Shown here: piece by piece, positions 2,251-20,283 of the stretch | How the letters are laid out: each line of letters starts with the position of its first letter | Position numbering within the stretch: position 1 is the first letter of the stretch | Source of the DNA: Paracoccus zhejiangensis | Lineage (GTDB): Bacteria; Pseudomonadota; Alphaproteobacteria; Rhodobacterales; Rhodobacteraceae | DNA: 20,283 nt | Assembly (NCBI RefSeq): GCF_002847445.1 | Contig: NZ_CP025434.1 | Coordinates: forward strand, 1 to 20,283 | Direction: 5' to 3' | Position numbers and translations under genes: made by a program | Notes under the pieces: generated by a model | Seen by the model: the letters and a program-made list of their open reading frames with translations, nothing else | Database searches by the model: none | What the model was told of the DNA's origin: nothing

Positions 2251-3156
2251 TTATCTGTAATCGCGGAGAATGTTGAGCCATCGGTCATGGGGCATCGCGA
2301 AATTGCCGGTGACGCGGCTGTCGTCGGGCACGTCGCGGGTGACCGCGGCGCCCAGGGTGACGGTCGAGCGGGTGCCGATGCGCAACCCGTTCGAGATGGT
2401 GCAGTTCGGCCCCAGATAGGCGTCGTCGCCGATCACGACCCGCCCGGAAATATCGCAACAGGCGCAGATGGTGACACGCTGGCCAATCAGGCAATCATGG
2501 GCGATGTAGGTCTGGGCATCGATCTTGGTCTCGTTGCCGATCTGGTTGAAGCCGCCAAAGGTCGACCGCGCCACGGTGCAGCCGGGCAGAAGGGTGACAT
2601 GATCCCCGATCCGGACCCCGCCGGCCTGCCGCAGCAGGGCCTTGGGCGAGGCGCCGGATTTCTGCTCGAACGCCTCCATCCCGATCACGCAGGTCGCGCC
2701 GATCTGGCATCCCGCACCGATGATCGAGCGTTCAAAGATGACGGCGTTGGGGCCGATCACGCTGCCGGCGCCGATGCTGACATTGCGTTCCGGGACATAG
2801 GCCCCCGGCATGATGATGGCCGAGGGATCGATGCGGCTGTCGAAATCGGTCCACAGAAAGCCCGGCATCGCGGCCAGATGTTCATGGATGGCCATGGCGG
2901 TGACAACGGGCTTTTCGGCGATCACCACCCCGGCCCCCCCGGGCACGGCATCGGCCAGATCTGCCGGGACGACGAAGGCGGCGATGCCGGTTTCCCCTGC
3001 CGCCTCGTCCAGATGGTTCTGCTTGCCGCATGGCACCAGCCGGCCATCCAGCCGGGTCGGGACCTTGCCGACACAGGCAATCTCCGCGTCACGGCGAACA
3101 TCCAGCCCCAGGATGGGCGCCAGTTCCGATAGCGCGATGCGATTGCCGGTGAACAT
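2251..3156 (-). CDS. LpxD-like hexapeptide-repeat N-acyltransferase in the WbpD position
   Basis: A 301-residue protein with a mixed N-terminal domain (about 1-105) followed by a left-handed beta-helix of isoleucine-rich hexapeptides (about 106-275, for example IGAGSVIGPNAVI). The segment KIDAQTYIAHDCLIGQ (211-226) matches the LpxD catalytic block, with H220 as the likely general base. The operon position between wbpB and wbpE suggests that it acylates the 3-amino group of the UDP-diamino-uronate, the step done by WbpD in Pseudomonas. WbpD is much shorter (about 190 residues) and uses acetyl-CoA. This protein has the two-domain architecture of LpxD, an acyl-ACP enzyme, so the acyl group may not be acetyl. 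It could also be a second LpxD-like enzyme unrelated to this sugar. The start ATG overlaps the wbpB stop (TGATG). Confidence 0.85.
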   Translation of the reverse strand: MFTGNRIALSELAPILGLDVRRDAEIACVGKVPTRLDGRLVPCGKQNHLDEAAGETGIAAFVVPADLADAVPGGAGVVIAEKPVVTAMAIHEHLAAMPGFLWTDFDSRIDPSAIIMPGAYVPERNVSIGAGSVIGPNAVIFERSIIGAGCQIGATCVIGMEAFEQKSGASPKALLRQAGGVRIGDHVTLLPGCTVARSTFGGFNQIGNETKIDAQTYIAHDCLIGQRVTICACCDISGRVVIGDDAYLGPNCTISNGLRIGTRSTVTLGAAVTRDVPDDSRVTGNFAMPHDRWLNILRDYR

Positions 3157-5994: not shown

Positions 5995-7155
5995 TCACAC
6001 CGCCCGTTCATTCTCGGCCCGCAGCAAGGCCATCACCATCGGACCGGGCGAGAAGGCCCCCTGCCCCGCCTTCTCCGTGAGCGCCCGTAAATAGCCGCCC
6101 GGACACGCGATTGTCTCGGCGCGCTGCAATATGCAGGCCAGCGTCACTGCGGCGACTGCGTCACCCATACTCTGCCGTGCCTGTGTCCAGGCATCGGCGC
6201 TGATGCCCAACATGGGCCGCACGAAGTTTGCCACCGCGACCAGAGCCCGCCAGTCATGGATGCCCTCGGTCGCATAGTCACGAATATCTGGGGCGGCTTT
6301 CAGCACCAGAGCCAAGGGGATCGCCGGTTCGGCTCTTTGCGTGGGTGTCGCTTTTTGCTGTTCACAGCAAGGATCAGATTCAGAGGAGTCTGGGTTTGAA
6401 TTCTGTTGGTGCCGCTCATTATCGGCGTCACTGCCGCCCATTTTTTCTGTTTTAATGAGAGCGCGGGCCCGGTCCAGCAGGATATCGGCCTCGGCCGCGA
6501 ACTGCGCCATGATGCCGATATCCAGTTTGCGCCGCAGCGCGCGCTGCAGCGACGCCACCGCCTGCAAAAGGCCGTCAGGGACGCGCCCGCCGGTTTCCTC
6601 GGCCCAGACAATCAGCTTGCTGGCGTCACGCAGGCGGACCACCACCATTTCGCGCAGGCGGCGCAGGGCCAGAGCGTCTCGGCGGGCGGTTTCGGCGGCG
6701 GCGGCAATACGCGGGCTGAGGACCAGCAGGGGCCGCAGATCGAAGCCGAAAGCCCGATCCAGCACACCCGAACGGTCCCGGGTGGCATAGCGCTTGCCGT
6801 TCGGGCTGTCGCGGCGCAGGATCAGCCCCGCCGCCGTCAGCGCCGCCAGGTGCCGCCGCAGCGTGCTTTCGGCCATGCCATGCGCCCGATCCGACAACGC
6901 AGCGTTTGACGGGAAGACGATCAGCTTCTCATCATCGGCCAGAACCTTGCCCGGGTGGAAGCTGAGCAGGGCCGAGAGCACCACCAGATCACGATCGCTG
7001 ACAGCAAAACTGGCACGGGCGGTGGTCAGGTCGCGCAGCAGAGCCCATTTGTCTGGTTCCGCCTGCAGGGCAGGGGCCTCGGCAAGGGCCTGGGTTGCCA
7101 GAAGGCCAGCCGTTACCGGCTGCCGCCCGAAGGGCGTCATTGAAATATGTCGCAT
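5995..7155 (-). CDS. repC: Plasmid replication initiator RepC
   Basis: A 386-residue protein of usual RepC length. The N-terminus MRHISMTPFGRQPVTAGLLA is typical of the family (TPFGRxPVT). A winged-helix DNA-binding region is visible at about 75-125 (LSDRAHGMAESTLRRHLAALTAAGLI is its core). A polar linker at about 238-275, rich in S, N, Q and E, joins a second helical domain near the C-terminus (290-380). RepC is the initiator of repABC plasmids and acts on an origin inside its own gene. It is the last gene of repA-repB-repC. The ATG at 7155 is taken; an in-frame ATG at 7140 is possible, and neither has a strong ribosome binding site. Weak initiation fits control by the counter-transcribed RNA encoded just upstream. 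Confidence 0.93.
   Translation of the reverse strand: MRHISMTPFGRQPVTAGLLATQALAEAPALQAEPDKWALLRDLTTARASFAVSDRDLVVLSALLSFHPGKVLADDEKLIVFPSNAALSDRAHGMAESTLRRHLAALTAAGLILRRDSPNGKRYATRDRSGVLDRAFGFDLRPLLVLSPRIAAAAETARRDALALRRLREMVVVRLRDASKLIVWAEETGGRVPDGLLQAVASLQRALRRKLDIGIMAQFAAEADILLDRARALIKTEKMGGSDADNERHQQNSNPDSSESDPCCEQQKATPTQRAEPAIPLALVLKAAPDIRDYATEGIHDWRALVAVANFVRPMLGISADAWTQARQSMGDAVAAVTLACILQRAETIACPGGYLRALTEKAGQGAFSPGPMVMALLRAENERAV
6345..6465. other. AT-richer segment inside repC, candidate oriV
   Basis: This stretch is clearly less GC-rich than the rest of repC and includes runs such as CTTTTTG (6351-6357) and ATTTTTTCTGTTTTAATGA (6440-6458). It encodes the polar linker of RepC. In repABC plasmids the origin lies within repC and is associated with an AT-rich segment, so this is the best local candidate. 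No iterons are visible. The low GC could also simply reflect the linker's amino acid composition. Confidence 0.4.
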
Positions 7156-7203
7156 ATTGTCAGTTCACGCGGGCAGAAAAGATCGTTCGCCGGAACAGAC
7201 GTT

Positions 7204-7219
7204 GTTGACAGCTGTCAAC
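7204..7219. other. parS: parS-like centromere palindrome between repB and repC
   Basis: GTTGACAGCTGTCAAC is a perfect 16-base palindrome and fits the known repABC centromere pattern GTT-2-C-1-GC-1-G-2-AAC exactly. A copy differing at one position lies downstream of repC at 5951. RepB is expected to bind it. Its left half supplies the TTGACA -35 hexamer of the predicted plus-strand ctRNA promoter, so RepB bound here could influence that promoter. Confidence 0.85.
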
Positions 7220-7234
7220 TCTTGCCGCTATCTT
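7205..7234 (+). promoter_or_regulatory. Predicted promoter of the counter-transcribed RNA
   Basis: A perfect -35 hexamer TTGACA (7205-7210) is followed after 18 bases by TATCTT (7229-7234, 4 of 6 to consensus), which predicts a start near 7241 on the plus strand, antisense to the rep operon. This is where repABC plasmids carry the promoter of the small antisense RNA. The -35 box lies inside the parS palindrome. Confidence 0.65.
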
Positions 7235-7240
7235 CGGGGT

Positions 7241-7295
7241 GTGAGAATGAAAGAGCGGCCTTTCGGGATGTCATGTCCTGGGGGGCTTCTTTTTT
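7241..7295 (+). ncRNA. Counter-transcribed RNA (incompatibility RNA) of the repABC module, predicted
   Basis: Between the predicted start near 7241 and the T-run ending at 7295 lies a transcript of about 55 bases, the usual size of repABC antisense RNAs. It is encoded opposite to repC in the repB-repC gap, the standard place. It would pair with the repC leader and reduce RepC synthesis, which sets copy number and incompatibility. Its 3' half folds into a 12-base-pair hairpin that relies on five G-U pairs. These pairs exist only in the plus-strand RNA, so the strand assignment comes from the sequence itself. The exact 5' end is an estimate. Confidence 0.7.
7258..7295 (+). terminator. Rho-independent terminator of the ctRNA
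   Basis: Bases 7258-7269 pair with 7275-7286 around a 5-base loop, giving 12 continuous pairs, five of them G-U. The stem is followed directly by TTCTTTTTT (7287-7295). The minus-strand equivalent would have A-C mismatches, so the signal belongs to plus-strand RNA. The stem doubles as the hairpin of the ctRNA. Confidence 0.75.
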
Positions 7296-7342
7296 GCCTG
7301 TTTCGTGCCTCCTTGCTGGTTCTATACCTGTTCTCGCCGCCG

Positions 7343-8257
7343 CTAACCGTTTGATTCCAGCCAGTTGCGGTGAACCTCTTCAAGGTGATCGACCAGCCAT
7401 TCGCCGAATTCACGGCCTTCACCGGACAACTCGATCACCGTTTTGGTCTTGCCTCTGCGCGTCTCGCCAAGGACCTGGCCAGACAAGCCTGTCAGCTTGC
7501 GCGGTCCGGGCAGGACCGAGCGCGCCGGCGCCGCGGCAGCAAAGACCGCCTCGAAGCGCTGATCCGAACTGTCGCCACGCGCCGCCCTTGCGAGGGCCGC
7601 CAAATCGCCGCCGCGCGCGCGCTTGACCAGCGACAGCCAGCGGTCGCGGCCGACCGAGGGGGCGCTTCCGATCGCCTGAATCAGCTTCACCGGCAAGGTG
7701 TCGGCCACCGTCAGCATGCGGGAAATCACCGTCTTGTCGATGCTGAGCGCGTCGCAGACGATCTTGCGGTCATATCCGGCCTTGACCATCTGCTGCGCGA
7801 ACAGCGCCTTCTCGATGAAGGACAGATCCTTGCGGGCCGTGTTTTCCTGACCCTGGGCGATGACCAGATCGCGGTCGTTCAGCGTCCGCACCATGGCCTT
7901 GACCGGCTGGCGCAGCGCCTTCAGCGCCGCGACGCGGCGGCGGCCATAAACCACGTCATAGCGTCCCTCGTAATTCGGGCTGTGGCGCAACAGGACAGGC
8001 ACCTGCTGGCCATAGTCACGGATCGACTTGGTCAGCGCCGCCAGACCCTCGGGGTCCTCGTCCAACCGGTCTTTCAACCCGGCATTGTCGATCATGTCGG
8101 GGGCCACATCGATGATCGCCCTGCGCTTCAGATCGTCGATGGATTTCGAGACCGCGCCGATGGCACCACGCTCATAACGGGGCAGGGCGGGCGTATCCTC
8201 ATCCGGCGCCGCCGGCGCACTGTCCATCAAGCCCTGCAGCAGGTTCTTCCGCGCCAT
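7343..8257 (-). CDS. repB: Plasmid partitioning protein RepB (ParB family)
   Basis: A 304-residue ParB-type protein starting MARKNLLQG. This ATG overlaps the repA stop (TGATG) with GGGGACGAG upstream, so it is preferred to the in-frame start at 8281. The ParB nuclease-like domain shows YGRRRVAALKAL (104-115) and QENTARKDLSFIEKA (137-151). A helix-turn-helix follows at about 163-182 (DRKIVCDALSIDKTVISRML). The basic C-terminal region should dimerise. RepB binds parS, here probably the palindromes at 5951 and 7204, and works with RepA to segregate the plasmid and regulate the operon. The 187 bases between its stop and repC hold a parS copy and the ctRNA gene. Confidence 0.95.
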   Translation of the reverse strand: MARKNLLQGLMDSAPAAPDEDTPALPRYERGAIGAVSKSIDDLKRRAIIDVAPDMIDNAGLKDRLDEDPEGLAALTKSIRDYGQQVPVLLRHSPNYEGRYDVVYGRRRVAALKALRQPVKAMVRTLNDRDLVIAQGQENTARKDLSFIEKALFAQQMVKAGYDRKIVCDALSIDKTVISRMLTVADTLPVKLIQAIGSAPSVGRDRWLSLVKRARGGDLAALARAARGDSSDQRFEAVFAAAAPARSVLPGPRKLTGLSGQVLGETRRGKTKTVIELSGEGREFGEWLVDHLEEVHRNWLESNG

Positions 8258-9447
8258 CAGCTCGTCCCCTTGCGGCCCCATGCCGCCTGCACCAGACCTT
8301 CGATCTCGCCATTGACGGCGTTCAGGCTTTCCAGCGCGCGCTCGTAGGTCGCGCGGGTGAATGCCGATTTTTCAACCTCATACAGGGTCTGCTTGGTAAT
8401 TCCGGCATCCGAGATCGCGGTGGATTTCAGTACCGAATGGTTCAGCACATGATCCCCGAACATCGAGCGCATGAAGCTGACCATCTGGTTTTGCGGCCCG
8501 TCGCCGGGCTCGTAGCGGGTAATGACATAGCGCATCCAGTCGTAATCCATGTCGCCCCCGGCTTCGGCCACCACACCCAACAGGTTCGAAGTCATCAACA
8601 GGAACTGGCACATCGACATCACATCCAGCATCTGCGGATGCACCGTCACCAGGATCGCCGTCGCCGCCGACAGGGCCGACATCGTCAGAAAACCGAGCTG
8701 CGGCGGGCAGTCGATCACCACCACGTCATAATCCGATTCGACCTCGGCCAGAGCATCGCCAATCCGGGTAAAGAAAAACTTTCCCGAGCGTTCGGCCAGC
8801 GCGCGCGGCGTGTCATGCTCGAACTCCATCAGCTCGAGATTACCGGGAATCAGGTCGAGATTGGTGAAATAGGTCTTCTGGATCATCCCGCGGATCGGCA
8901 GCGGGTCGTTGTAGCGGATCGCATCATAGATGGTGCCGCCATCGCCCAGGTCGAATTCCGGCTGCACACCATGCAGGGCCGACAGGCTGGCCTGCGGGTC
9001 GAGATCGATCGCCAGCACGCGATAGCCGTCCAGCGCCAGCTTCTGCGCCAGATGTGCGGCCGTCGTGGTCTTGCCCGACCCGCCCTTGAAGTTGATGACA
9101 GTGATGACCTGCAGGTGATCGCCCTCGCGCCGGCCGGGCAGATAGGTTCCCGGTGTTTTCGCTCCCTTTTCAAGCGTTTGGCGCAGGGCGAGGATATCGC
9201 CCGGGCTATAATAGCGCCGACCGCCTGCACGCGTTTCCGGGCTGGGGCCCTTGCCCTCCAGATCCAGCTTGCGCAGATAGGCGTCTTTCACGCCCAGCAG
9301 GTCGGCGACCTCGCCACTGGTGAACTTGCGCAGCTCCCGCCGCGCATCCGGTGGAAACAGCTGGGCGCGATGCGCCTGCAGCCGCTCGGACAGGGCCAGC
9401 GCATGGCCGCCCACCAACTTGTCGATGCGCATCTTTGGCTGCATCAT
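8257..9447 (-). CDS. repA: Plasmid partitioning ATPase RepA (ParA family)
   Basis: A 396-residue ParA-type ATPase. An N-terminal MerR-like helix-turn-helix (about 41-85, FTSGEVADLLGVKDAYLRKL) is typical of RepA and autoregulatory ParAs. The deviant Walker A is KGGSGKTT (121-128), Walker A-prime is DLDPQASLS (148-156), and VVVIDCPPQLGF is the Walker B region. RepA drives segregation with RepB and represses the repABC promoter. Two consecutive ATG codons occur at 9447 and 9444. GAGGG lies immediately upstream and spaces slightly better to the second. It is the first gene of the operon and overlaps repB by one base. Confidence 0.95.
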   Translation of the reverse strand: MMQPKMRIDKLVGGHALALSERLQAHRAQLFPPDARRELRKFTSGEVADLLGVKDAYLRKLDLEGKGPSPETRAGGRRYYSPGDILALRQTLEKGAKTPGTYLPGRREGDHLQVITVINFKGGSGKTTTAAHLAQKLALDGYRVLAIDLDPQASLSALHGVQPEFDLGDGGTIYDAIRYNDPLPIRGMIQKTYFTNLDLIPGNLELMEFEHDTPRALAERSGKFFFTRIGDALAEVESDYDVVVIDCPPQLGFLTMSALSAATAILVTVHPQMLDVMSMCQFLLMTSNLLGVVAEAGGDMDYDWMRYVITRYEPGDGPQNQMVSFMRSMFGDHVLNHSVLKSTAISDAGITKQTLYEVEKSAFTRATYERALESLNAVNGEIEGLVQAAWGRKGTS

Positions 9448-9669: not shown

Positions 9670-10389
9670 TCAGGGCGACGAACAGACCCACTTGGCGGCG
9701 CCGGCGCATCCCGCTTGGGCCGCGATCCCGTTTTCCCGCGCCATAGCATTGCGCACTGTCGCGGCATACCACAGGCCACCCCGCGCCGTCCTTATGCCCC
9801 GCATGTTCAACTCGGCCGCGATCTGGCGAAGGGATGCGCCGCGGGCCGCGATCTGGCGAATGACCGGCAAGACGTTCGCCGCATGCTGATCGGCCTTCCT
9901 TGCGTTACACTCTGCCCCTTTGCGGGCCGCTTGGCGCTGTTCCCCCGCCCTTCCCGGCATGGACCAGCCCAAGGCCACGCCACGGGCCTTGGCCGCTGCC
10001 AGCGCCGCGCGGGTGCGATCTGAAATGGCTTGGGCCTCATGCTCTGCGACCGCCGCCATGACGTGCAGCAGGAAGCGGTTCGCCTCCGGCATGTCCGCCG
10101 CTGCGATCTCGACACCGGCTTCCAGCAGGTTGGCAATGAAGGCCACATTGCGGGCGAGGCGATCCAGTTTGGCGATCAGAAGAACCGCGCCGATCCGCTT
10201 GGCCTCTGCCAGGGCACGGGCGAGTTGGGGGCGGTCATTCTTCTTGCCGCTTTCGATCTCGACATACTCTGCCGCGATCTTCCCTTTGCCCGCGACGTGA
10301 TCCAGAACCGCCGCCCGTTGGGCTTCCAGGCCGAGGCCGCTCTTGCCCTGGCGATCCGTGCTAACCCGCAGATAGGCGACAAAGAGCAT
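9670..10389 (-). CDS. Serine recombinase (resolvase/invertase family)
   Basis: A 239-residue small serine recombinase, complete in outline. The catalytic serine is S10 in YLRVSTDRQG, with R8 beside it. LDRLARN (75-81) supplies the conserved arginines, and the long E helix runs through about 104-135. A short helix-turn-helix follows (SLRQIAAELNMRGIRTARGGLWYAATVRNAM, about 186-216; core SLRQIAAELNMRGIRT). The role is probably resolution of plasmid multimers or past integration of the neighbouring cargo. It lies between repA and the divergent glycosyltransferase gene. An imperfect inverted repeat at 10439-10472, just upstream of its start, is a possible target or operator. The ribosome binding site is weak. 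A DNA invertase role cannot be excluded. Confidence 0.9.
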   Translation of the reverse strand: MLFVAYLRVSTDRQGKSGLGLEAQRAAVLDHVAGKGKIAAEYVEIESGKKNDRPQLARALAEAKRIGAVLLIAKLDRLARNVAFIANLLEAGVEIAAADMPEANRFLLHVMAAVAEHEAQAISDRTRAALAAAKARGVALGWSMPGRAGEQRQAARKGAECNARKADQHAANVLPVIRQIAARGASLRQIAAELNMRGIRTARGGLWYAATVRNAMARENGIAAQAGCAGAAKWVCSSP

Positions 10390-10521: not shown

Positions 10522-11538
10522 ATGGCCCTGCCTTGTGAAACAGAGGCGCGCGGTCTAGCACTCGGCGAGGCACGAACCCATCCCAACCCCAGCCCAGGGC
10601 CGACGGAAGCGCAGATCTTGTTGACCAGCATCCTTATCCCGGTTTTCAATGAGGCCGACCATCTTGCAGATTGTCTGGGATCGATCCGGGCAATGCCGGA
10701 TTGCGAGATCGAGGTCATCCTTGTCGACGACCATTCGACCGATGCGACCTATCAGATCGCCTGCGACATTGCCGCGGCACGCGGCGATTTGCCGATCACC
10801 GTCTTGCGCAATCGAGGCCAAGGCAAGGCGGCGGCCCTGAACCTGGCCTATCGCCATGCCAAGGGGGACGGCTTTGTTCTGCTGGCCGGGGATGATCTGC
10901 TGGTCAGCGAGGTGCTGCCTGCCCGCATAGCTGCCGTCGCCGGCCCGCAACCGACCGTTGCCCTGTGCCGATATCGCAGCTTCTCTGACATTCCGGCCCA
11001 TGACGGCACCCTGTTTCCACGTCCCGGGCGCGAGGATCACCTGGCCGGCGGCGCGACCAGTTTCAACCGCGCCTTTGCCGAGCTGTATTTCCCGATCCCC
11101 GAAGAGCTGCCCAACGAGGACAGCTGGCTGCGCGCCATCGCGATCCTGTTCTGTCTGCCCGTCACCTTCATCGACCGCATCGGGCTGCATTACCGCATCC
11201 ATGATCGCAATTCGACCGGCCCTTCGCTGGACTTCGCCCTGACGAACGAAGGGCTTGCCCGGCGTCACGCCGCCTTCAGTCTGGCGCTTGAGCGATTTGA
11301 TGGCGCCACGGCGGCGGGGCGGGACCGGCTGGCCACGCTCGTCCAGGCCGAAGCCCGCCGATCGGCTGGGGACTGGCTGGGCGTTCTGCGGTTGAAGCAT
11401 CTGCCGGCCGGTGATCGCAGCATCTTTCTGGCCAATTCGACCCCGTGGCTGTTTTGGATCAAGGGGCAACTGCTGCAGATCCTGAACCGGAGGAACCGCC
11501 GGTCCCGATCCGCCGGCCGGAATGTCACGCCCCGGTAA
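10522..11538 (+). CDS. Glycosyltransferase family 2
   Basis: The GT-A core begins SILIPVFNEADHL, followed by VILVDDHSTDAT (UDP-sugar aspartates, about 65-76), NRGQGKAAALNLAY, LLAGDDLL (metal-binding pair at 124-125), PNEDSWLRA (197-205, probable catalytic acidic pair) and HYRIHDRN (223-230). All are hallmarks of GT2. It is a soluble cytoplasmic enzyme with no clear membrane helix. It probably adds a sugar to the capsule repeat. The start is uncertain: the ATG at 10522 gives 338 residues with a low-complexity lead of about 34 residues and no ribosome site. A TTG at 10618 has GGAAG 8 bases upstream and begins just before the GT2 core, and may be the true start. The frame is open further upstream through the recombinase, but that part is a shadow. 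Confidence 0.88.
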   Translation: MALPCETEARGLALGEARTHPNPSPGPTEAQILLTSILIPVFNEADHLADCLGSIRAMPDCEIEVILVDDHSTDATYQIACDIAAARGDLPITVLRNRGQGKAAALNLAYRHAKGDGFVLLAGDDLLVSEVLPARIAAVAGPQPTVALCRYRSFSDIPAHDGTLFPRPGREDHLAGGATSFNRAFAELYFPIPEELPNEDSWLRAIAILFCLPVTFIDRIGLHYRIHDRNSTGPSLDFALTNEGLARRHAAFSLALERFDGATAAGRDRLATLVQAEARRSAGDWLGVLRLKHLPAGDRSIFLANSTPWLFWIKGQLLQILNRRNRRSRSAGRNVTPR

Positions 11539-11893
11539 TTGCACAGGACCCTTTGCTTGGGGCAGCTGCGCGCGGATATGAATGGAGCGGCCATTCCAAG
11601 CGTGAGCCCCTGATCTGAACGCAGGTCAGCAAGCCGCCACGTCGCATCGCCGGATTGGTCAGGAGAGCTTTGGATGTTCAGCCAAGGGCAAGCCCGGCCG
11701 TGGCAACCGCGGCTAGAGAAAACCGCGCGAAATCAAAGGAAACGATATCCGCGATCAGGTCTTCCAACCACAAGATCAAGCGCAGGCCCCTGCCCCTCGC
11801 GGCCCCGGCGCGGCGCGAAAACGGGGATGACCCTCGCGCACAGTTGCCCTATGAAGACGCCAGTGTCGGGACCCGGTGAAGGAAAAAGACCAG
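11539..11893 (+). other. Intergenic region before the export operon
   Basis: This 355-base gap has no convincing gene; the short frames here have neither ribosome sites nor family-like sequence. Two small hairpins are visible: GAATGG (11580-11585) with CCATTC (11591-11596), and CTGATCT (11610-11616) with AGGTCAG (11623-11629, one G-T pair). Neither is followed by a T-run. The gap probably contains the promoter of the kpsE-kpsT-epimerase-kpsM operon, but no clear hexamers were found. AAGGA at 11879-11883 is the ribosome binding site of the next gene. Confidence 0.4.
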
Positions 11894-13039
11894 ATGCAGA
11901 TGATCGGCACCCCCGTTGTCGCTGACAAGGCACCGAAATCGCGACGCCGGCGCTATTTGGCGCTGGCGCCCGCGCTTCTGGTGGTCGGTGTGATCCTTCC
12001 GGTGGCGGCATTGGCAGCCTATCTTTATCTGATCGCCGCCGACCAATACGACTCGAAGGCCGCCTTCTCGATCCGCTCGGAGCAGTCTGGCGGGGTGGCG
12101 CAGGGGTTCCTGGGCGCGATTGCCTCGGTGGGCGGGACGGGATCGGCGCAGGATACCGACCTGCTGTTCGACTACATCCAGAGCCAGGCCATCGTCAAAA
12201 CCGTGGACGCCAAGCTGGATCTTCGCCATCTCTATCGTGAGCGCGAGGGTGACTGGGCCTTTTCTCTGGCCCCCGACGCACCGATCGAGGACGTCGTTCA
12301 CTACTGGAACCGGATGGTCTCGGTCTCCAACGAGTCGCGCGACGGCATCCTGCGCGTCGAGGTCCGCGCCTTTGACCCCGAGGATGCGCAGCAAATCCTG
12401 AAGGAAATCCTGGCCGCCAGCAGTGACCTGATCAATCAGCTGTCGCAGGATGCCCGGGCGGACAGTCTGCGGCTCAGCGGTGATCTGGTCACCGAGACGC
12501 GCGCAGATTTGCAGGAGATACGCCGGAAACTGACCGATTTCCGGCGCGAGAACAAGATCATCACGCCCGAGCTGGAAGCCGAGAGCCGCAGCACCTTGAT
12601 CGCGACCCTGCAGGGCAAGATCGCCGAGGCCGTGATCGAGCGCGATTCAATTCTGGCCTATTCGAACGAGAATGATCCACGGGTCCAGAATATCGACATC
12701 CGGCTGGACTCATTGCGCGCCCAGATGGAACAGGAACGCATCGACCTGTCGCAATCCGACAAGACGGCCGATCTTGATGTCTACGGGGTCTATGAAAGCC
12801 TGCTCCTGGAGCAGGAAATGCTGAACGTGGCCTATGGCCAGGCCCTGGCGAACCAGGCCAGCGCCCATGCCGAGACCCGTCGTCAGGCGCGCTATGTCAC
12901 GGTGCATGTGCCCCCGTCCTTTGCCGAGGTCCCGCTTTATCCGCAGAGGTTGAAGATCCTGCTCATCACCACGGTGATCCTGTTGCTGATCTGGTCGATC
13001 GTCACGGTGTTCTACAAGAACACCCGGGACAAGTTCTGA
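11894..13039 (+). CDS. kpsE: Capsule polysaccharide export inner-membrane protein, KpsE/CtrB/BexC type
   Basis: A 381-residue protein from the ATG at 11894, chosen because AAGGA lies 10 bases upstream; a GTG at 11876 overlaps that site. The layout is that of a type-3 polysaccharide co-polymerase: a basic cytoplasmic N-tail, a first membrane helix (about 22-48), a periplasmic region starting ADQYDSKAAFSIRSE, a long helical coiled-coil part (about 193-335), the proline-bearing PLYPQRLK, and a second membrane helix (about 354-374) near the C-terminus. No kinase or Walker motif is present. It should bridge the KpsMT transporter and the outer-membrane exporter. It is followed 17 bases later by the ATPase gene. 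Confidence 0.92.
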   Translation: MQMIGTPVVADKAPKSRRRRYLALAPALLVVGVILPVAALAAYLYLIAADQYDSKAAFSIRSEQSGGVAQGFLGAIASVGGTGSAQDTDLLFDYIQSQAIVKTVDAKLDLRHLYREREGDWAFSLAPDAPIEDVVHYWNRMVSVSNESRDGILRVEVRAFDPEDAQQILKEILAASSDLINQLSQDARADSLRLSGDLVTETRADLQEIRRKLTDFRRENKIITPELEAESRSTLIATLQGKIAEAVIERDSILAYSNENDPRVQNIDIRLDSLRAQMEQERIDLSQSDKTADLDVYGVYESLLLEQEMLNVAYGQALANQASAHAETRRQARYVTVHVPPSFAEVPLYPQRLKILLITTVILLLIWSIVTVFYKNTRDKF

Positions 13040-13056: not shown

Positions 13057-14391
13057 GTGATCGAATTCCGTCATGTCAGCAAGCATTTCGACACGCCCCA
13101 TGGGCGCAAGGTGCTGCTGGACAATTTTTCGATGGTGGTGCCCTCCGGCGCCAAGATCGGGCTGCTGGGCCGCAACGGTGCCGGCAAGTCGACGATGATC
13201 GGCATGATATCGGGCACGGTATCGCCCAATTCCGGCCGGATCCTGCGCGAGGGCACGATGTCCTGGCCAATGGGCTTCACTGGCAGCTTCGCTGCCGACA
13301 TCACCGGGCGTCAGAACGCGCTGTTTGTCGCCCGCATCTACGGCGTCGATGCGGAATCGCTGTTAGGCTTCGTTCAGGAATTTGCCGAGCTGGGCGGGTT
13401 CTTCGACATGCCCGTCCGCAGTTATTCGTCCGGGATGAAGGCACGGCTGGCGTTTGGCCTGTCGATGGGCCTCGGCTTTGACTGGTATCTGGTCGACGAG
13501 GTCACGGCCGTCGGCGACACCGCCTTCCGCAAGAAGTCGCTCGAGATGTTCCGCAATCGCCTGACGGATGCAGGCATGATCATGGTCTCGCATTCGACCA
13601 GCACCCTGCGCGACTATTGCACCAGCGGCATCGTTCTGGAGGGCGGAAACGGCATCTTCTTCCACGACATCGAGGATGCGATCCGTCAGCACGAGCTGAA
13701 CATGGACAATGCCTTCGTCGCCGAGATCGAGGGCGGGGAAGGCAATGCCGAGCTTCTGTATCGGGAAGCCAAGAAACGCTATCAGAACGCCGACTATCTG
13801 CGCGCCGAGGAGTTTCTGTCGCGCGCCCTGGCCGAACAGCCGGAGAGGGCCGACTGGCACGCCCTGCTGGCAGAGATCAGCCGCCGGCTGGGGGTGAATG
13901 ACGCGGCGATCGATTCATACCGACGCGCGGTCGACCTGCAGAACGAACCGCGACACCGCGTCGGGCTGGCCCAGGTGCTGGCGGCAGCTGGCCGCGTCGA
14001 GGAAGCCGAGCAGGAATTCCAGCAGGTGCTGCGCGTCGATCCGAACAACAGTGCTGCCACCTACGCGCTTGGGCGTCACCGCTATCGTCAGGGGCAATTC
14101 GATGAGGCTGAAAGGCTGCTGATGCTGACCCTGGCCTCGGACCCTGAAAATGCCGGCGCACACCGGGTTCTTGCCCAGCTGTATGACGCGCGGGGCAATC
14201 ATCCGCAGGCGCTGTCGCACCATGCGGCGGTGGCCCGGCTGCTGCCTGAAAATACCAGCTTCCTGCTGGGCTATGCCCGCTCGCAACGTCGCAACGCCGA
14301 CACCTTCGGCGCCGAGGCAACCTATCGCCGCATCCTGTCGCTGGATCCAGACAACAGCGCGGCCCGCACTGATCTGGAGCGTCTGAAATGA
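13057..14391 (+). CDS. kpsT: Capsule export ABC ATPase (KpsT type) fused to a C-terminal TPR-like domain
   Basis: A 444-residue protein beginning with GTG at 13057. Residues 1 to about 215 are a KpsT/CtrD-like ATPase: Walker A GRNGAGKST (38-46), signature YSSGMKAR (123-130), Walker B WYLVDE (143-148) and switch H179. KpsT proteins are normally about 215-220 residues long. Here residues about 230-444 form a series of helix pairs with TPR character, for example YREAKKRYQNADYLRAEEFL, AAGRVEEAEQEFQQVLRVDPNN and RQGQFDEAERLLMLTLASDP (each at most one repeat). The ATPase half energises polymer export with KpsM. The TPR half may recruit a partner such as a glycosyltransferase, the epimerase-like protein or KpsE; that is an inference. 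Its stop overlaps the next start (ATGA). Confidence 0.92.
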   Translation: MIEFRHVSKHFDTPHGRKVLLDNFSMVVPSGAKIGLLGRNGAGKSTMIGMISGTVSPNSGRILREGTMSWPMGFTGSFAADITGRQNALFVARIYGVDAESLLGFVQEFAELGGFFDMPVRSYSSGMKARLAFGLSMGLGFDWYLVDEVTAVGDTAFRKKSLEMFRNRLTDAGMIMVSHSTSTLRDYCTSGIVLEGGNGIFFHDIEDAIRQHELNMDNAFVAEIEGGEGNAELLYREAKKRYQNADYLRAEEFLSRALAEQPERADWHALLAEISRRLGVNDAAIDSYRRAVDLQNEPRHRVGLAQVLAAAGRVEEAEQEFQQVLRVDPNNSAATYALGRHRYRQGQFDEAERLLMLTLASDPENAGAHRVLAQLYDARGNHPQALSHHAAVARLLPENTSFLLGYARSQRRNADTFGAEATYRRILSLDPDNSAARTDLERLK

Positions 14392-15794
14392 TCGGTCATA
14401 GCATTCGCAAGCGTATCGGCCTCGTTCGCCGGCCGGCGGCGATCCGCAGGTCTTTTCCGTCCTCGCTGCCGCCGCTGCCGGAAGCACGACAGGCGGTTTA
14501 CGAGTATTATCGGCTGGATTTCGATGCCAATGGCTGCCCGATGCGCCGCATGCCTGACGGGCGCCTGGTCTTCCATCCCATCCTGATCCCCTATCTCGTC
14601 GCCGATTATCTGAACCTCTACCGGACAACGAAGGATCCGGCCTGTCTGGATTATGCCCGCCAGGTCATGGACATGGCGCTGAGCCGAGCCGAGCCGGGGC
14701 GTGACGAATTGCTGTTCTACTACGAGCCTGAAGGCGGATTGACGGCAATGCCACATCGCTTCTATTCGGCGCTCACGCAGTCCTGGTATGTCAAGTCACT
14801 GGCACAACTGGAGAAAATTTGCCCCGGCGCGTATCGGGAACAATTGGCTCGCGCGTTTGCCAGCCTTCTGATCCCGATCGATCAGGGGGGCGTTCTCGTG
14901 CGCAGAGATTTCGGCTGGCTGGTCGAGGAATATCCGCACGAACCGCCGCTCTACACCCTGAATGGCTGGTTGACGGCAATCCGCTGGGTGCTTGAGGCCT
15001 TGCCCGAGCTTGAGCAGTGCAATCTCGATTGTCGCGAGTTCCTGCGCCGCAATCTTGACGCGGTCGAACATCTTCTGCCGCTTTACGATGCCGCTTTCTG
15101 CTGGAACACGCGCTATCAGTTGACCGGCTTCACCCGGCTGAAGATCGTGACCGACCGTCGTGCAGGCATGACCTGCGGCAGCTTTGGTATCGACATTCCG
15201 GGCGAGACGCCCCTGCAAGCCGATCTGTCGCCCCCAGCACAATCTCCCCGCTGGCACAGCCATCTTGAGCGTCAGGACGGGCGCTTGCTGCAGTTCAACA
15301 TCGTCCAGTCGATGATCAGCTATCCGCTGGCCAATCGCTATCGCGCCGAAATTCGCTGTGATCAGGATTGCACCGCAACCGTCTTCGTCGCCGATGGCGA
15401 TTACGACCCCGCGCTGACGGCGATGCCGACCACGCGCTGGCGCGAGATCGGTCGCCACGATCTGCGGACCGGCAGCAACCAGATCGACGGGGATATCCCC
15501 TTTGATGACCGCAACATTTTCGCCTATCCGACCAATTTCAAGAAGAAGATCGCCGGACGGTTCTACAACGCCTATCATATCGTGCATGTCATTGATCTGG
15601 CTGTCATGTATGCTGGAACCGGTCGCCAGATGTTTGCCGATACTGCCCGAAAATGGCTGAGTTACATGGACCATTGGCCCGAGATGCAAGTCTTGGCGGA
15701 CCCCCAAACTTCGAAAACCTCGCATGTGTACGGCGATGATCTGTCAGCAGTCGTCGAAAGATACCTGTCCAGGCCCGTCATACGCACGCTCTAG
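14388..15794 (+). CDS. D-glucuronyl C5-epimerase-like protein
   Basis: A 468-residue protein that resembles the C-terminal catalytic region of heparan/heparosan glucuronyl C5-epimerases. Matching blocks are YSALTQS (126-132), EEYPHEPPLYTLNGW (180-194, compare the animal EEYPTxPxxxVLNGF) and a C-terminal YNAYHIVHVIDL (393-404, in the place of the family's tyrosine-histidine segment). The N-terminal part (30-140) looks like the start of a helical toroid. No signal peptide or membrane helix is seen, so it should act in the cytoplasm. The known family flips C5 of uronic acid residues in a finished polymer (GlcA to IdoA). The substrate here is unknown; the diamino-uronate or a glucuronate are candidates. 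It sits inside the export operon, overlapping kpsT by 4 bases. A lyase-like or non-epimerase role is possible. Confidence 0.78.
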   Translation: MIGHSIRKRIGLVRRPAAIRRSFPSSLPPLPEARQAVYEYYRLDFDANGCPMRRMPDGRLVFHPILIPYLVADYLNLYRTTKDPACLDYARQVMDMALSRAEPGRDELLFYYEPEGGLTAMPHRFYSALTQSWYVKSLAQLEKICPGAYREQLARAFASLLIPIDQGGVLVRRDFGWLVEEYPHEPPLYTLNGWLTAIRWVLEALPELEQCNLDCREFLRRNLDAVEHLLPLYDAAFCWNTRYQLTGFTRLKIVTDRRAGMTCGSFGIDIPGETPLQADLSPPAQSPRWHSHLERQDGRLLQFNIVQSMISYPLANRYRAEIRCDQDCTATVFVADGDYDPALTAMPTTRWREIGRHDLRTGSNQIDGDIPFDDRNIFAYPTNFKKKIAGRFYNAYHIVHVIDLAVMYAGTGRQMFADTARKWLSYMDHWPEMQVLADPQTSKTSHVYGDDLSAVVERYLSRPVIRTL

Positions 15795-15813: not shown

Positions 15814-16638
15814 ATGGAACAAAATACCGCCACCGCCCCGCAGACGGACTTTCCCGTGCAACATGTGGGCGCGATCAGGTTTCAGGCATCGCGCATCATT
15901 GCTGCGCTGATCCTGCGCGAAGCATCGTCCCGCTTTGGCAAATCCGCAGGGGGATATTTCTGGTCCATCGCGGAACCGGCGGCCGGCGTTCTGTTGCTGT
16001 CCATCGCCTTTGGTTTTCTGCTGGCCAAGCCACCGATCGGCTCCAGCTTCTTCCTGTTCTATACCAGCGGCGTGGTGCCGCTGCTGTTCTTCAATACCCT
16101 GTCCAATGCGCTGGCACAGTCGGTCGCCTCGAACAAGGGGCTGCTCAGCTATCCGGTGGTGTCGATCCTCGAGGTGATCGTCGCGCGCACGCTCTTGGAA
16201 CTGATGACCTATTCGGCCGTTTTCGTGATCATCACCCTGTTCGTCGTCCAGGTCGACAATATCGTGCTGCATCCCGACCTGCTGCAGGTCATCGTCGCAC
16301 TCTTGCTGACCGCATTGCTGGGGATGGCCGTCGGCATGGCCAATTGCATCCTGTTCGTGCATTTTCCCATCTGGCGCAACATCTGGCGCATCTTGACCCG
16401 GCCGATGCTGATCATTTCCGGGGTCATGTTCACCTATGACCGGATGCCGGAAAGCCTGAAGGAATGGTTGTGGTACAACCCGCTCTTGCAGAATATCGGT
16501 GTCATGCGCGGCGGACTCTACGCGGTCTATAACGATTCCTACGTGTCCTACACCTATATCATCGGTGTCTGCCTGTTCATCATCGCCGTCAGTGCCGCGA
16601 TCATCCGGGCCGATCAGGGACGCCTGATCGAACAATAA
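15814..16638 (+). CDS. kpsM: Capsule export ABC permease, KpsM type
   Basis: A 274-residue ABC-2 type membrane protein. The amphipathic N-terminal stretch and ALILREASSRFGKSAGGYFWSIAEP (part of the KpsM/Wzm N-terminal signature around 31-55) are followed by about six hydrophobic segments (roughly 55-71, 84-104, 117-145, 157-183, 193-207, 247-265). The C-terminal YNPLLQNIGVMRGGLY (221-236) is typical of the family. It forms the channel powered by the KpsT ATPase. The ATG at 15814 is chosen because the preceding 30 residues of the open frame overlap the upstream gene and lack family similarity. AGG lies 5 bases upstream, a weak ribosome site. The gene begins 19 bases after the epimerase-like gene and is the last of the plus-strand operon. 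Confidence 0.93.
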   Translation: MEQNTATAPQTDFPVQHVGAIRFQASRIIAALILREASSRFGKSAGGYFWSIAEPAAGVLLLSIAFGFLLAKPPIGSSFFLFYTSGVVPLLFFNTLSNALAQSVASNKGLLSYPVVSILEVIVARTLLELMTYSAVFVIITLFVVQVDNIVLHPDLLQVIVALLLTALLGMAVGMANCILFVHFPIWRNIWRILTRPMLIISGVMFTYDRMPESLKEWLWYNPLLQNIGVMRGGLYAVYNDSYVSYTYIIGVCLFIIAVSAAIIRADQGRLIEQ

Positions 16639-16647
16639 ACGCTTTGG

Positions 16648-16688
16648 GCCGGCCTCGATCCCGGTGGGGCCCGTCAGGCCGGCGTTTT
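16648..16688 (+). terminator. Possible terminator after kpsM
   Basis: GCCGGCCT (16648-16655) and AGGCCGGC (16676-16683) form a perfect 8-base stem with a 20-base loop, followed by GTTTTG on the plus strand. It lies in the gap between the convergent kpsM and methyltransferase genes, and its right arm runs into the end of the latter. The T-run is short, so termination strength is uncertain. Confidence 0.4.
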
Positions 16689-17564
16689 GCGCAGGATGGC
16701 GAAATTGTTGCGGTGCACGGTTTCGTCCATCTTGGCAAAGGTGCCGGCCTCGACCTCACCCGCCGTGCCGATCTCGCGCTCGAGAAAGCGCAGCCAGCTT
16801 TCCGGGCTCCAGAAATTGACGTGATAGCGCGACCGGTCCAGCCGGCCCTGCGGCACCGTCAGCAACAGCGTTCCGCCCGGCCGCACCGCCCCGACCAGCG
16901 TCGCGAGGGCGCGTTCGGGATATTCCAGATGCTCCAGAACCTCCATGCACAGGACCAGGTCGAATTGTTCGGCCGTCGGCTGATAGATATCGGCAACCCC
17001 GAATTGGCCCCCGGGGATTTCGGCCGCCGCAATCTGAAGCGCATTTTCAGAGAAATCATATCCGACCACCCGCTTTGGCCGCGCCTCTCCGATCAGGGCC
17101 TTCAAGGCGAGACCGGGGCCGGTGCCAAAATCGAGCAGCTCGACCCCGTCCAGCGGCACCGCCTTGCTGTCCATCAATGCCCGCACGGCCAGACCGAACT
17201 GGGTGTAAATCTCGCGATCGTCGACCTGCTGGAAGAAGGCATTCATGCCCTCGGCTGAATTATGCGCCAGCGTCTGGAACTCCGCATCACGGCCTTCCCG
17301 CTCGTCGCGACTGGCGAGGCGGTTATTCAGCTTTCCGATCGCCTCGTCACGCCGGACGATCGCCTCGTCACGCCGGGCAACGATCTCGGCCTGATCGACA
17401 ATGCGCTGGTTCAGCTTGACGATCGCCTCGTCACGCCGGGCAATGATCTCGGCCTGATCGGCAATGCGCTGGTTCAGCTTGACGATCACCTCTTGTTTGC
17501 GCTGCACCATCTCGCGGGCTTCCACCAGCTTCTGCGCCGTGGATTTCGTTTCAGGTTGAACCAT
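16674..17564 (-). CDS. SAM-dependent methyltransferase with an N-terminal repeated coiled coil
   Basis: A 296-residue protein. The start at 17564 is fixed by a strong GGAGG 7 bases upstream; the longer open frame to 17594 is not used. Residues about 10-95 are a coiled coil with 21-residue units (KLNQRIADQAEIIARRDEAIV, nearly repeated directly after). A class I methyltransferase follows, with motif I LLDFGTGPG (143-151), an acidic D170 after VVGY, and LVLCMEVLEHL (203-213), common in polysaccharide and small-molecule methyltransferases. It may methylate a sugar or cap the chain; coiled coils measure chain length in some O-antigen terminators (WbdD type), which is only an analogy here. It is the last gene of the minus-strand cluster that starts beyond 20283. 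Confidence 0.85.
   Translation of the reverse strand: MVQPETKSTAQKLVEAREMVQRKQEVIVKLNQRIADQAEIIARRDEAIVKLNQRIVDQAEIVARRDEAIVRRDEAIGKLNNRLASRDEREGRDAEFQTLAHNSAEGMNAFFQQVDDREIYTQFGLAVRALMDSKAVPLDGVELLDFGTGPGLALKALIGEARPKRVVGYDFSENALQIAAAEIPGGQFGVADIYQPTAEQFDLVLCMEVLEHLEYPERALATLVGAVRPGGTLLLTVPQGRLDRSRYHVNFWSPESWLRFLEREIGTAGEVEAGTFAKMDETVHRNNFAILRKTPA
17337..17487. repeat. 63-base tandem repeat with a 21-base sub-repeat in the methyltransferase gene
   Basis: Units at 17355-17417 and 17418-17480 are nearly identical and a third begins at 17481. The subunit around GATCGCCTCGTCACGCCGG also recurs 21 bases apart at 17337 and 17358. The unit length is three heptads, so gain or loss of a copy keeps the coiled-coil frame. 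Confidence 0.85.
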
Positions 17565-17631
17565 CAGAAAGCCTCCGGAAAAGCGCGATGACAAAAAGCG
17601 ATTGATGTTAAATCAGTTATCCCATTCGCGA

Positions 17632-18783
17632 TCAAGCGCCCACACCTGTTCCTTGCCGGATTGCCGCCATGAACCGGGCCAGGCCAAATGCCGCATACAT
17701 GCGCTGTCGTGGATAAAGCGCCTCGCCATCGCCCGCCGCCAGGCGCATCAGCACGGCCTCGCAGACAGGGGCGGCATATCCACGCCAGCGATCCGATCGG
17801 CCGTCCACACGGTCAGCGATCCGCCCCGACAAGGTCACCAGCAATTCACCCAGCGACCACAACCGGGCAGGATTGGGCTTGATCGCCAGATAGGCATCGC
17901 CGACCCGGAGCAGGGCGGTGCCACCGGCGGGCGGCAATTCCGGCTTTGCGACCAGCGATGCGGTATCCAGAAATCCCGGCGCGGCCGAGAACAGCGACAT
18001 CGTCTCGACCAGTGCCAGATCCTCGGCCGCCCTGTCGCGCTGATCGGCGGGCAGGCCGGCTGACAGGCTGTTCAGGATGAAGCATTGATGCAAGAGGTCG
18101 ATCACCGGCGAGGCCGGATCGTCGGACCAGCCGATCCCGGGCTGGCGCAAGGCGCGGATCTCGCACAGCTGCGACCGGAATTCGTCGGCCATCAGACCGT
18201 CCGGCTGGCCCCGGAGGTGAACACTGATGGCATAGATGGCCGCATTCAGGATCGGACGGCGAACCGTCGGGGAATAGATCGGCAGCGCAATCCCCAGATC
18301 TGCATTCAGGACGCTTTCGGTCCTGCACCAGGTCTGGATCGCGCCCAGGCTACCGTCCAGAAGCTCTGCCGCCTGTGGCAGGTCGGGCAGCAGGGCTGTC
18401 AGTTCGATCAGCCCTTCGGCGATCATCGCGGTGGTAATCAGAAAGGGTTCGCGCGCATCCGTTGCCGCATAGTCGAAACCCAGCCCCCAGCCGATCCCGC
18501 CGGCAAAGGGCAGCGCGGCCTGGTTCAGCCGGGACAGCGCCGCCTCGGCCATGGCGCGCAATTGACTCTGGGAGATCAGCCGGGTCTGCGCCGCGATCGC
18601 CGCCGCCGCCAGAAACCGGCCTTCGGCCATCGGGTGGGCAAGCGGGGCTGCGTGATAGGCGTCAGGCCCGACCCCGCCGCCGTGATGATGCGCGTCCAGC
18701 AATGACATCAGGGCCGCGCGGGCCCGCCCGGCCAGATTCTGCGGCCTGCCGCCCTGCTCTGCCGGACGGTCGGCTTCGGTCAC
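17632..18783 (-). CDS. Unrecognised protein, probably an all-helical (alpha/alpha) fold, polysaccharide locus
   Basis: A 383-residue protein that I cannot assign to a family. The start is taken as GTG at 18783, which overlaps the stop of the upstream 2-epimerase (GTGA). The longer ATG frame from 18879 would run far into that gene. There is no signal peptide or membrane helix. The sequence alternates amphipathic helices with short aromatic loops: GIGWGLGFDYA (96-106), EPFLITTAMIAEGLIEL (112-128), YSPTVRRPILNAAIYAISVHL (170-190, given as its core YSPTVRRPILNA), and GWSDDPASPVIDLLHQ (218-233). This pattern resembles helical toroids of glycan-acting enzymes such as epimerases and lyases, but no catalytic motif is certain. 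It is located between a nucleotide-sugar 2-epimerase and a methyltransferase, so a role in polymer synthesis or modification is likely. Confidence 0.75.
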   Translation of the reverse strand: MTEADRPAEQGGRPQNLAGRARAALMSLLDAHHHGGGVGPDAYHAAPLAHPMAEGRFLAAAAIAAQTRLISQSQLRAMAEAALSRLNQAALPFAGGIGWGLGFDYAATDAREPFLITTAMIAEGLIELTALLPDLPQAAELLDGSLGAIQTWCRTESVLNADLGIALPIYSPTVRRPILNAAIYAISVHLRGQPDGLMADEFRSQLCEIRALRQPGIGWSDDPASPVIDLLHQCFILNSLSAGLPADQRDRAAEDLALVETMSLFSAAPGFLDTASLVAKPELPPAGGTALLRVGDAYLAIKPNPARLWSLGELLVTLSGRIADRVDGRSDRWRGYAAPVCEAVLMRLAAGDGEALYPRQRMYAAFGLARFMAAIRQGTGVGA

Positions 18784-19841
18784 AAGGTTTCCCGGATGAT
18801 GCTCAGGATCCGGTCGGCCGTATCGCCCTGGCCATAATCCTCGATCTCGCGCCGGGGCTTGTGGATCGGGTTTGTCCACAGGGCGTTCCAGCCTGCATCA
18901 ACGGTTTCCACCCATTCGGTTTCGTCGCGCAGCGTGATGCAGGGCTTGCGGTGGAAATAGGCCTCTTTCTGCAGGCCGCCGGAATCGGTCAGCACCAGAT
19001 CGGCAATCCCCAGCAGTCCCTGAAGCTGGATATAGGGCAGCGGATCGATCATCATCAGCCCGGCGGGCAGGTCCACATCCATCTGTGCCAGCTTCGCCCG
19101 GGTGCCCGGATGGATCGGAAAGACGATGTCGTGATCCTGCGCATAGCCTGCGACGAAATCCAGGATCTGGCGCGCCCGGCCGGGCCGGTCGAAATTTTCT
19201 GCCCGATGCAGCGTCAGCAGCGCCAGCTTGCGCCCGGGGCGGCGATAGGTTGCCGTCAACGCCTCGCGATCGGCCAGCGCGCCGAAACGCAGGGCGACAT
19301 CATACATGATATCGCCAACCATATGCACGCCGTCGCGGATATTCTCGTCGGCCAGATTGTCGACGCCGGTCCGGGTCGAGCAGAACAGCAGCCGGCTGAC
19401 ATGATCGGTCAGGATGCGGTTGATTTCTTCCGGCATGGCCTTGTTGAAGGACCGCAACCCGGCCTCGACATGGATCACCGGGATATGCAGCTTGGCCGCC
19501 GCCAATGCGCCGGCCAATGTCGAATTGGTATCGCCATAGACCAGTAGCGCATCCGGAGTCTCGGCCAGCAGGATGCGCTCGATTTCGGCCAGCATCTGGC
19601 CGGTCATGGCACCATGATGGCGATCCTCGATGGTCAGCCGATGTTCGGGTGCGCGCAGGCCCAGTTCCTCGAAGAAGACCCCGGACATGTTGGTGTCGTA
19701 ATGCTGGCCGGTATGGACCAGGATTTCATGGAAATCAGGTGCGGCGTCGAAGGCGGCGCGCAGCGCGGCCGCCTTGATGAATTGCGGCCGCGCACCGACC
19801 ACGGTCAGGATGCGGCGCGGAGTGGTCGCGGTCTGGTTCAT
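18780..19841 (-). CDS. Non-hydrolysing UDP-N-acetylglucosamine 2-epimerase family, WbpI-like
   Basis: A 353-residue protein from the ATG at 19841, which overlaps the upstream glycosyltransferase stop (ATGA). The longer frame to 19910 is out of context. Family marks are VVGARPQFIKAAAL (14-27), VYGDTNSTLAGALAA (101-115) with D104, HVEAGLRSFNKAMPEEINR (124-142) with E126 and E138/E139, LLTLHRAENFD (208-218) with H212, and LTDSGGLQKEA (284-294). The epimerase inverts C2 of the sugar in UDP-HexNAc substrates. The SFNKAMPEEINR version, rather than the GDLYSPWPEE type of classical WecB, and the length close to WbpI suggest that it acts on UDP-GlcNAc3NAcA to give UDP-ManNAc3NAcA. The presence of wbpA, wbpB and wbpE in the same window supports this. 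ManNAc production (WecB) remains possible. Confidence 0.92.
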   Translation of the reverse strand: MNQTATTPRRILTVVGARPQFIKAAALRAAFDAAPDFHEILVHTGQHYDTNMSGVFFEELGLRAPEHRLTIEDRHHGAMTGQMLAEIERILLAETPDALLVYGDTNSTLAGALAAAKLHIPVIHVEAGLRSFNKAMPEEINRILTDHVSRLLFCSTRTGVDNLADENIRDGVHMVGDIMYDVALRFGALADREALTATYRRPGRKLALLTLHRAENFDRPGRARQILDFVAGYAQDHDIVFPIHPGTRAKLAQMDVDLPAGLMMIDPLPYIQLQGLLGIADLVLTDSGGLQKEAYFHRKPCITLRDETEWVETVDAGWNALWTNPIHKPRREIEDYGQGDTADRILSIIRETL

Positions 19842-20283
19842 GCAGGATAGGCCCTCAGCAATGCGTCTTCGAAGCGATCCCAGGACATTGCATCCGAAAA
19901 CCGGCGGCAATTGGCGCGGGCCTGGTCCAGATCGGCCGGAGTGATCACCTCGAGCTGCTTCAGGATGTCATCCGCGCCAAAGTCGCGGGGCAGCAGGAAG
20001 CCGGTGCCCCATTCCGATATGATGCGCTCCATCTCGACCAGGCCGGTGGCCAGGATCGGAACCCCGGCATTGGGAAATTCCCACAGCTTGTTGGGCGTGC
20101 AGTAAAGATGGTTCATCCCGACATTCTCATAGGGGATGGCCCCCAATGCCGCGCCCGCGCTCCAGTAAGGCAGCTCGTCCTGCGGGGCAGCAGGGATCAT
20201 CGCCAGGGGCGCCTTTTCGGGATGGTCGGGATCGGTCAGCTGGTCGATGGCGGCGCTGATCTCGGGTTCCAGCTTGCCCCAGC
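19838..20283 (-). CDS. Glycosyltransferase, C-terminal part (5' end beyond the window)
   Basis: The frame is open from the right edge, and 147 codons are visible before the stop at 19838. The visible segment has MNHLYCTPNKLWEFPNAG, then VPILATGLVEMERIISEWGTGFLL, which matches the donor-sugar binding region of GT4-type (GT-B) enzymes: a PNKLxE motif followed by a conserved aliphatic-Gly-Pro segment. The last helix ends DRFEDALLRAYPA. It would transfer a sugar of the polysaccharide in the cytoplasm. The true start cannot be seen; the ATG at 20200 is internal, because the preceding 27 codons (WGKLEPEISAAID and onward) are protein-like. The stop overlaps the 2-epimerase start, so the two are coupled. 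Confidence 0.85.
   Translation of the reverse strand, partial: WGKLEPEISAAIDQLTDPDHPEKAPLAMIPAAPQDELPYWSAGAALGAIPYENVGMNHLYCTPNKLWEFPNAGVPILATGLVEMERIISEWGTGFLLPRDFGADDILKQLEVITPADLDQARANCRRFSDAMSWDRFEDALLRAYPA

Follow-up and report, generated by a model that had tools for sequence, protein, structure and literature searches.

A GLCE-type C5-epimerase gene linked to diamino-uronate genes in a capsule-type export locus of a Paracoccus zhejiangensis plasmid

The window analysed here is the whole stretch of 20,283 bp, which makes up the entire contig C5 of the Paracoccus zhejiangensis genome, and the gene under study (14388..15794) encodes a protein related to the animal D-glucuronyl C5-epimerase GLCE. 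It lies in a single run of genes consisting of kpsE, kpsT with a tetratricopeptide repeat (TPR) tail, the epimerase gene and kpsM, on a contig that also encodes candidate enzymes for a 2,3-diamino-uronate. The genes of both groups are listed below (ABC, ATP-binding cassette; NDP, nucleoside diphosphate; HexNAc, N-acetylhexosamine; aa, amino acids).

11876..13039, plus strand: KpsE/BexC/CtrB-type polysaccharide export protein (TIGR01010, 196 bits, under the cut-off of 437.5)
13057..14391, plus strand: KpsT-type ABC ATPase bearing fused TPR repeats at its C-terminus (PF00005 and TPR families)
14388..15794, plus strand: PF06662 (D-glucuronyl C5-epimerase) protein, 468 aa (Pfam profile, catalytic residues, predicted structure)
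15814..16638, plus strand: KpsM-type ABC permease, in-frame ATG (PF01061; NF050053 KpsM, 115 bits, under the cut-off of 300)
1123..2241, minus strand: WbpE-type 3-aminotransferase (PF01041; 373 bits to WbpE 3nu7, 459 bits to 4qgr)
2251..3156, minus strand: hexapeptide N-acyltransferase at the WbpD step, 301 aa, LpxA/LpxD-like (PF00132)
3156..4124, minus strand: Gfo/Idh/MocA sugar 3-dehydrogenase at the WbpB step (PF01408)
4143..5450, minus strand: WbpA-type NDP-HexNAc 6-dehydrogenase (TIGR03026, 410 bits, over the cut-off)
18780..19841, minus strand: WbpI-type UDP-GlcNAc3NAcA 2-epimerase (solved-structure matches)

The epimerase gene was found between kpsT and kpsM, where the sequence-only reading of this DNA had placed it, with the kpsT stop and the epimerase start overlapping by 4 bp (as ATGA) and 19 bases separating the epimerase stop from the kpsM ATG. 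Homologues of KpsM, KpsT and KpsE occur together on the plasmid, each falling short of the NCBIfam threshold set for the model concerned; for the KpsT-type ATPase, the best models were those of polysaccharide and teichoic acid exporters, all under cut-off. The C-terminal TPR extension of this ATPase is common to a protein of a Limimaricola variabilis plasmid (56% over 440 aa). Moreover, a genome search for the KpsC/KpsS family (PF05159) gave four matches, all on contig C1 (two open frames), and none on the plasmid.

The epimerase scored 57.2 bits to PF06662, compared with a curated cut-off of 23.3, and all five catalytic residues of GLCE (E, Y, N, Y and Y) are kept as E181, Y182, N192, Y243 and Y396, Y182 corresponding to Y500 of human GLCE. 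A confident structure model had GLCE as its best match and presented the helical-domain fold of that enzyme, with 19% identity to 6hzz in the structural alignment. The earlier assignment to the C5-epimerases was thus borne out by the profile search, the residue alignment and the structure prediction alike. In addition, at least 120 homologues appeared among the matches listed (87-34% identity over 56-100% of the query), which together with the confident model rule out a chance family match. The gene belongs to the PF06662 C5-epimerase family, its activity being a predicted one. In the model, helices start at residue 32, and residues 240-393, inside the helical part, are rich in strands; the gap between Y243 and Y396 amounts to 153 residues, with eight longer strands inside, and this spacing ranges from 140 to 162 residues across the family (median 153). 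E181, N192 and Y396 were invariant across 121 family sequences, while Y182 was changed in nine of them: the loci L003, L004, L005 and L006 have W, W, F and A, respectively, at this position, and the other five, all from the listed proteins, have H, A or F; because of these replacements, Y182 appears to be dispensable in parts of the family. The window protein has no N-terminal hydrophobic segment, and the N-terminus is not strongly hydrophobic in L005, L007 and L008 either, that of L006 being too short there to score.

The same reading had placed genes for a 2,3-diamino-uronate in this window, and enzymes of the WbpA, WbpE and WbpI types were indeed found. The WbpI-type protein scored 348 bits to 8sxv, a solved UDP-2,3-diacetamido-2,3-dideoxy-glucuronic acid 2-epimerase, compared with 141 bits to the WecB-type 1f6d, which, together with its 36.5% identity to E. 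coli WecB, rules out an ordinary WecB. The nearest solved structures to the WbpA-type dehydrogenase were Cap5O and a ManNAc-uronate dehydrogenase, not UDP-glucose dehydrogenase, and it scored 209 bits to E. coli WecC (part) against 61 bits to Ugd in a comparison with E. coli proteins. The Wbp proteins compared were PDB entries, and the steps are assigned in the order of the Wbp pathway. The acyltransferase reached 162 bits to NF002060 (LpxD), under the cut-off of 207, its top solved match being an LpxA-type enzyme (68 bits), and the nearest named NCBIfam model for the 3-dehydrogenase was NF040723 (UDP-GlcNAc 3-dehydrogenase, 136 bits, under the cut-off of 450); owing to these affinities, the acyl group may be another one and the steps may follow a different order. 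The acyltransferase, being LpxA/LpxD-like rather than of the short WbpD type, may attach an acyl group other than acetyl. Since the 2-epimerase is of the WbpI type, the expected end product is UDP-ManNAc3NAcA, and the plasmid is expected to encode a 2,3-diamino-uronate pathway leading to it. Of the L-gulo and ido products suggested earlier, L-gulo would be expected after C5-epimerisation because the pathway ends in WbpI, and L-ido would not.

The linkage between the epimerase and WbpI was followed across nine loci, these being the window, L003-L007 (five loci found by a scan of species genomes queried with the epimerase alone, as a single protein and not an alignment), L008 (plasmids), L012 (viral contigs) and L064 (order search). 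A WbpI-type gene was present within ~3 kb of the epimerase in seven of the nine (the window and L003-L008), so the putative link to the diamino-uronate is supported by loci beyond the window. In particular, the WbpI-type genes of L003-L007 scored 294-314 bits to the window WbpI, compared with 116-152 bits to E. coli WecB. Candidates for all pathway steps were found in L003 and L006 (the acyltransferase by weak matches only, 35 bits), WbpE reached at least 46% identity in four of the five genomes of L003-L007, and KpsT or KpsM matches were present in L006, L007 and L008. For reference, the window WbpI served as the query against 142 class genomes, with at least 47% identity taken as WbpI grade; a match of this grade appeared in 8 of the 141 other genomes, and 8 of the 50 other matches reached it. 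By rough arithmetic of our own, if nearby 2-epimerases were of WbpI grade at this rate, the chance of finding six of six so would be ~2 in 100,000, an estimate that does not count the two loci lacking a 2-epimerase and in which L003 and L004 are related.

A general co-travel of PF06662 with WbpI was ruled out by L010/L029, L011/L030 and L064. No window pathway protein matched near the first two, both found by PF06662 alone (L011/L030 being barely above the cut-off, at 26.5 bits), or around the L064 gene, whose product is 24.6% identical to the epimerase. This distant relative (9348-10853 of L064) is without the EEYP block and keeps LNGW and a late histidine block; by eye, it is an orphan adjoining an apparent restriction system.

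The epimerase gene is rare and scattered. Only the P. zhejiangensis genome carried it among 394 genomes of the family, and the same held for PF06662 in 385 class genomes, whereas two more genomes had PF06662 among 398 of the phylum. Furthermore, a profile of the epimerase family found only the centre genome when applied to 151 genomes from the G1120 family and to 199 from the G1121 family, and the P. zhejiangensis genome and G1482 among 301 order genomes. Judged by their genome numbers, the eight WbpI-grade genomes fall in the class search where P. zhejiangensis alone had PF06662, so the epimerase is often missing where WbpI is present, as would be expected if the modification is optional.

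What the analysis shows is membership of the family, the retained catalytic residues, a predicted GLCE fold, the order of the genes, the presence of pathway genes and a WbpI linkage that recurs; the reading slightly favoured here is that of a cytosolic polymer-level C5-epimerase converting D-ManNAc3NAcA to L-GulNAc3NAcA before ABC export, for which we infer the activity, the substrate, the action on the polymer and the location. The GLCE-fold enzyme would act in the cytosol on the finished or growing polysaccharide chain, prior to KpsMT-type export; its target would be the diamino-uronate made by the same plasmid, in the form of 2,3-diacetamido-2,3-dideoxy-D-mannuronate (ManNAc3NAcA) residues, and removal of H5 followed by re-protonation on the opposite face would give the L-guluronate form (L-GulNAc3NAcA). 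A cytosolic enzyme fits, since ABC-dependent export moves chains that have been completed in the cytosol. Concerning the family, it is proposed tentatively, at just under an even chance, that a set of GLCE-fold proteins, scattered across plasmids and surface-polysaccharide loci in several proteobacterial classes, moved from glucuronate to 2,3-diacetamido-D-mannuronate. L-GulNAc3NAcA would then arise in chains that are complete or still growing; this would take place in the cytosol near ABC exporters and, for members with a hydrophobic N-terminus, perhaps at the membrane or across it.

An alternative that we hold to be unlikely, without dismissing it, is C5-epimerisation of D-glucuronate to L-iduronate at the polymer level, in a mixed polymer that also bears the diamino-uronate. 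Epimerisation of D-glucuronate is the known activity of the family according to PMC13308652, and the window protein shares Y182 with GLCE. Moreover, contig C2 of the P. zhejiangensis genome carries a gene for UDP-glucose dehydrogenase (60.5% to E. coli Ugd; NF011631, 540 bits, under the cut-off of 757), as do the Limimaricola plasmid (67% to E. coli Ugd) and G1120 (71%, on the same contig as the epimerase), so D-glucuronate may be in the polymers of all three, which speaks against the diamino-uronate as the target. However, no Ugd was found among the window genes searched, where the sole NDP-sugar dehydrogenase is WbpA-type, and the recurrent partner of the epimerase is WbpI. In G1117 and G1118, two betaproteobacterial metagenome-assembled genomes, the only dehydrogenase above the PF03721 cut-off was likewise WbpA-type and no Ugd was found, which argues against D-glucuronate there, although such genomes could be incomplete; G1119 and G1121 each had an additional dehydrogenase of ambiguous type. 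D-glucuronate does not account for the WbpI linkage of the epimerase family. Epimerisation at a nucleotide-linked or lipid-linked stage, before polymerisation, is considered quite improbable: the epimerase has no hydrophobic N-terminus and would be located with the cytosolic enzymes, but its predicted fold and residues match those of a polymer-acting enzyme with a cleft for ~seven sugars (as given in PMC13308652), and its gene overlaps the exporter genes and not the UDP-sugar genes. Least credible of all is the possibility that the protein trims or terminates the chain as a lyase or hydrolase sharing this helical-toroid fold.

Further observations weigh against a cytosolic epimerase of ManNAc3NAcA common to these loci. 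The L003 and L004 proteins carry an N-terminal hydrophobic segment, as do 7 of the 121 sequences overall, so not all family members would be cytosolic, and the replacement of Y182 affects four of the loci (L003-L006). No KpsM or KpsT match was obtained in the L003, L004 and L005 loci, which means that ABC export is not shared by every locus. Regarding the pathway, the flanks examined in L004, L005 and L007 contain wbpI alone, and WbpE of G1118 reached only 32% identity. Furthermore, no WbpI was found in L012 (1.7 kb upstream and ~10 kb downstream examined, the sequence covered being 13 of 54 kb) or in L064; both proteins have a hydrophobic N-terminus by eye, with no polysaccharide pathway around either, and look secreted and outside polysaccharide loci, L012, a contig of the viral collection, reading by eye as a phage/host border. 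Finally, L003 and L004 are alike, and the effective sample is smaller than the count suggests.

Compared with known systems, animal GLCE (PDB 6HZZ and 4PW2) has in common with the window epimerase the PF06662 domain, the five catalytic residues and the helical-domain fold. The N-terminal hairpin, central sandwich and C-terminal helical domains described for animal GLCE in PMC13308652 do not follow in that order in the model, where the hairpin domain has no counterpart; Y560 and Y578 of human GLCE (numbers from the same source) are 18 apart, whereas the equivalent Y243 and Y396 are 153 apart, and the window gene, unlike that of animals, sits in a bacterial capsule-type locus with a diamino-uronate pathway. 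According to the same paper, the bacterial D-glucuronyl C5-epimerase of Bermanella marisrubri has a GLCE-like mechanism and is active on O-desulfated heparin; this enzyme (Raedts 2013) is likened to the window protein by description. The paper also describes Agl32 of Halobacterium salinarum, a C5-epimerase acting on a uronate flanked by sugars, as having none of the GLCE catalytic residues at the corresponding positions.

The P. aeruginosa Wbp pathway to UDP-ManNAc3NAcA shares with the window WbpA-, WbpE- and WbpI-type enzymes, a 3-dehydrogenase and an N-acyltransferase, and differs from it in the last two, as detailed above. A similar arrangement was that of the L. variabilis plasmid NZ_CP139697.1 (L008), which has a C5-epimerase (58.5%) adjoining KpsM, a KpsT with TPR repeats, KpsE, and WbpA, WbpB, acyltransferase and WbpE proteins at 65-77% to those of the window. 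In contrast to the window, this plasmid is 51 kb long, has kpsT apart from the epimerase, carries its own Ugd and has its wbpI split by a transposon, so in that strain this copy may not support production of the D-manno sugar. The genes splitting wbpI (L008, 8730-13296) are annotated as Mu-type transposase, TniB and TniQ.

The remaining features of the window are the following.

19838..20283 (C-terminal part) and 1..1123 (N-terminal part), minus strand: GT4-type glycosyltransferase, 522 aa, spanning the contig join (GT4/GT1 Pfam matches below cut-off)
5995..9447, minus strand: RepC, RepB and RepA replication/partition genes, nearest to Paracoccus plasmids
9670..10389, minus strand: serine resolvase (PF00239)
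10522..11538, plus strand: GT2-type glycosyltransferase (PF00535, 4.5e-24; start codon picked by eye)
16674..17594, minus strand: methyltransferase (PF13489, 4.8e-17)
17632..18708, minus strand: 358-aa protein, predicted helical toroid in a low-confidence model (no Pfam family at E 0.1)

The contig reads as a circular RepABC plasmid of 20,283 bp. No exact overlap of 11-200 bases was found between its ends, and the join is crossed by three open frames, of 554 and 108 codons on the plus strand and of 614 codons on the minus strand. The minus-strand frame contains the 522-aa glycosyltransferase, whose similarity to L003 and L007 proteins (residues 227-520 and 211-509, respectively) continues unbroken across the join at ~residue 374, which suggests a closed circle. 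With a serine resolvase, a surface-polysaccharide locus and export genes on a 20-kb RepABC plasmid, it resembles a compact coat-sugar unit. The 358-aa predicted toroid has a 38% identical relative in the Accumulibacter C5-epimerase locus (L007) and may be a second polymer-acting enzyme of such clusters.

L-GulNAc3NAcA is already known from P. aeruginosa O-antigens, so the epimerised product would not be new; the enzyme might be. The new evidence here is the recurrent linkage of the epimerase to WbpI. According to PMC13308652, just one D-glucuronyl C5-epimerase has been identified from bacteria. If the proposal is true, the D-glucuronyl C5-epimerase family would have a further class of substrate, and a named gene would make it possible to test where the L-guluronate-type diamino sugars of bacterial surface polymers come from. 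It would also provide a cytosolic polymer epimerase working before export, unlike the alginate epimerases, which are periplasmic or secreted, and such enzymes could yield new charged polysaccharides.
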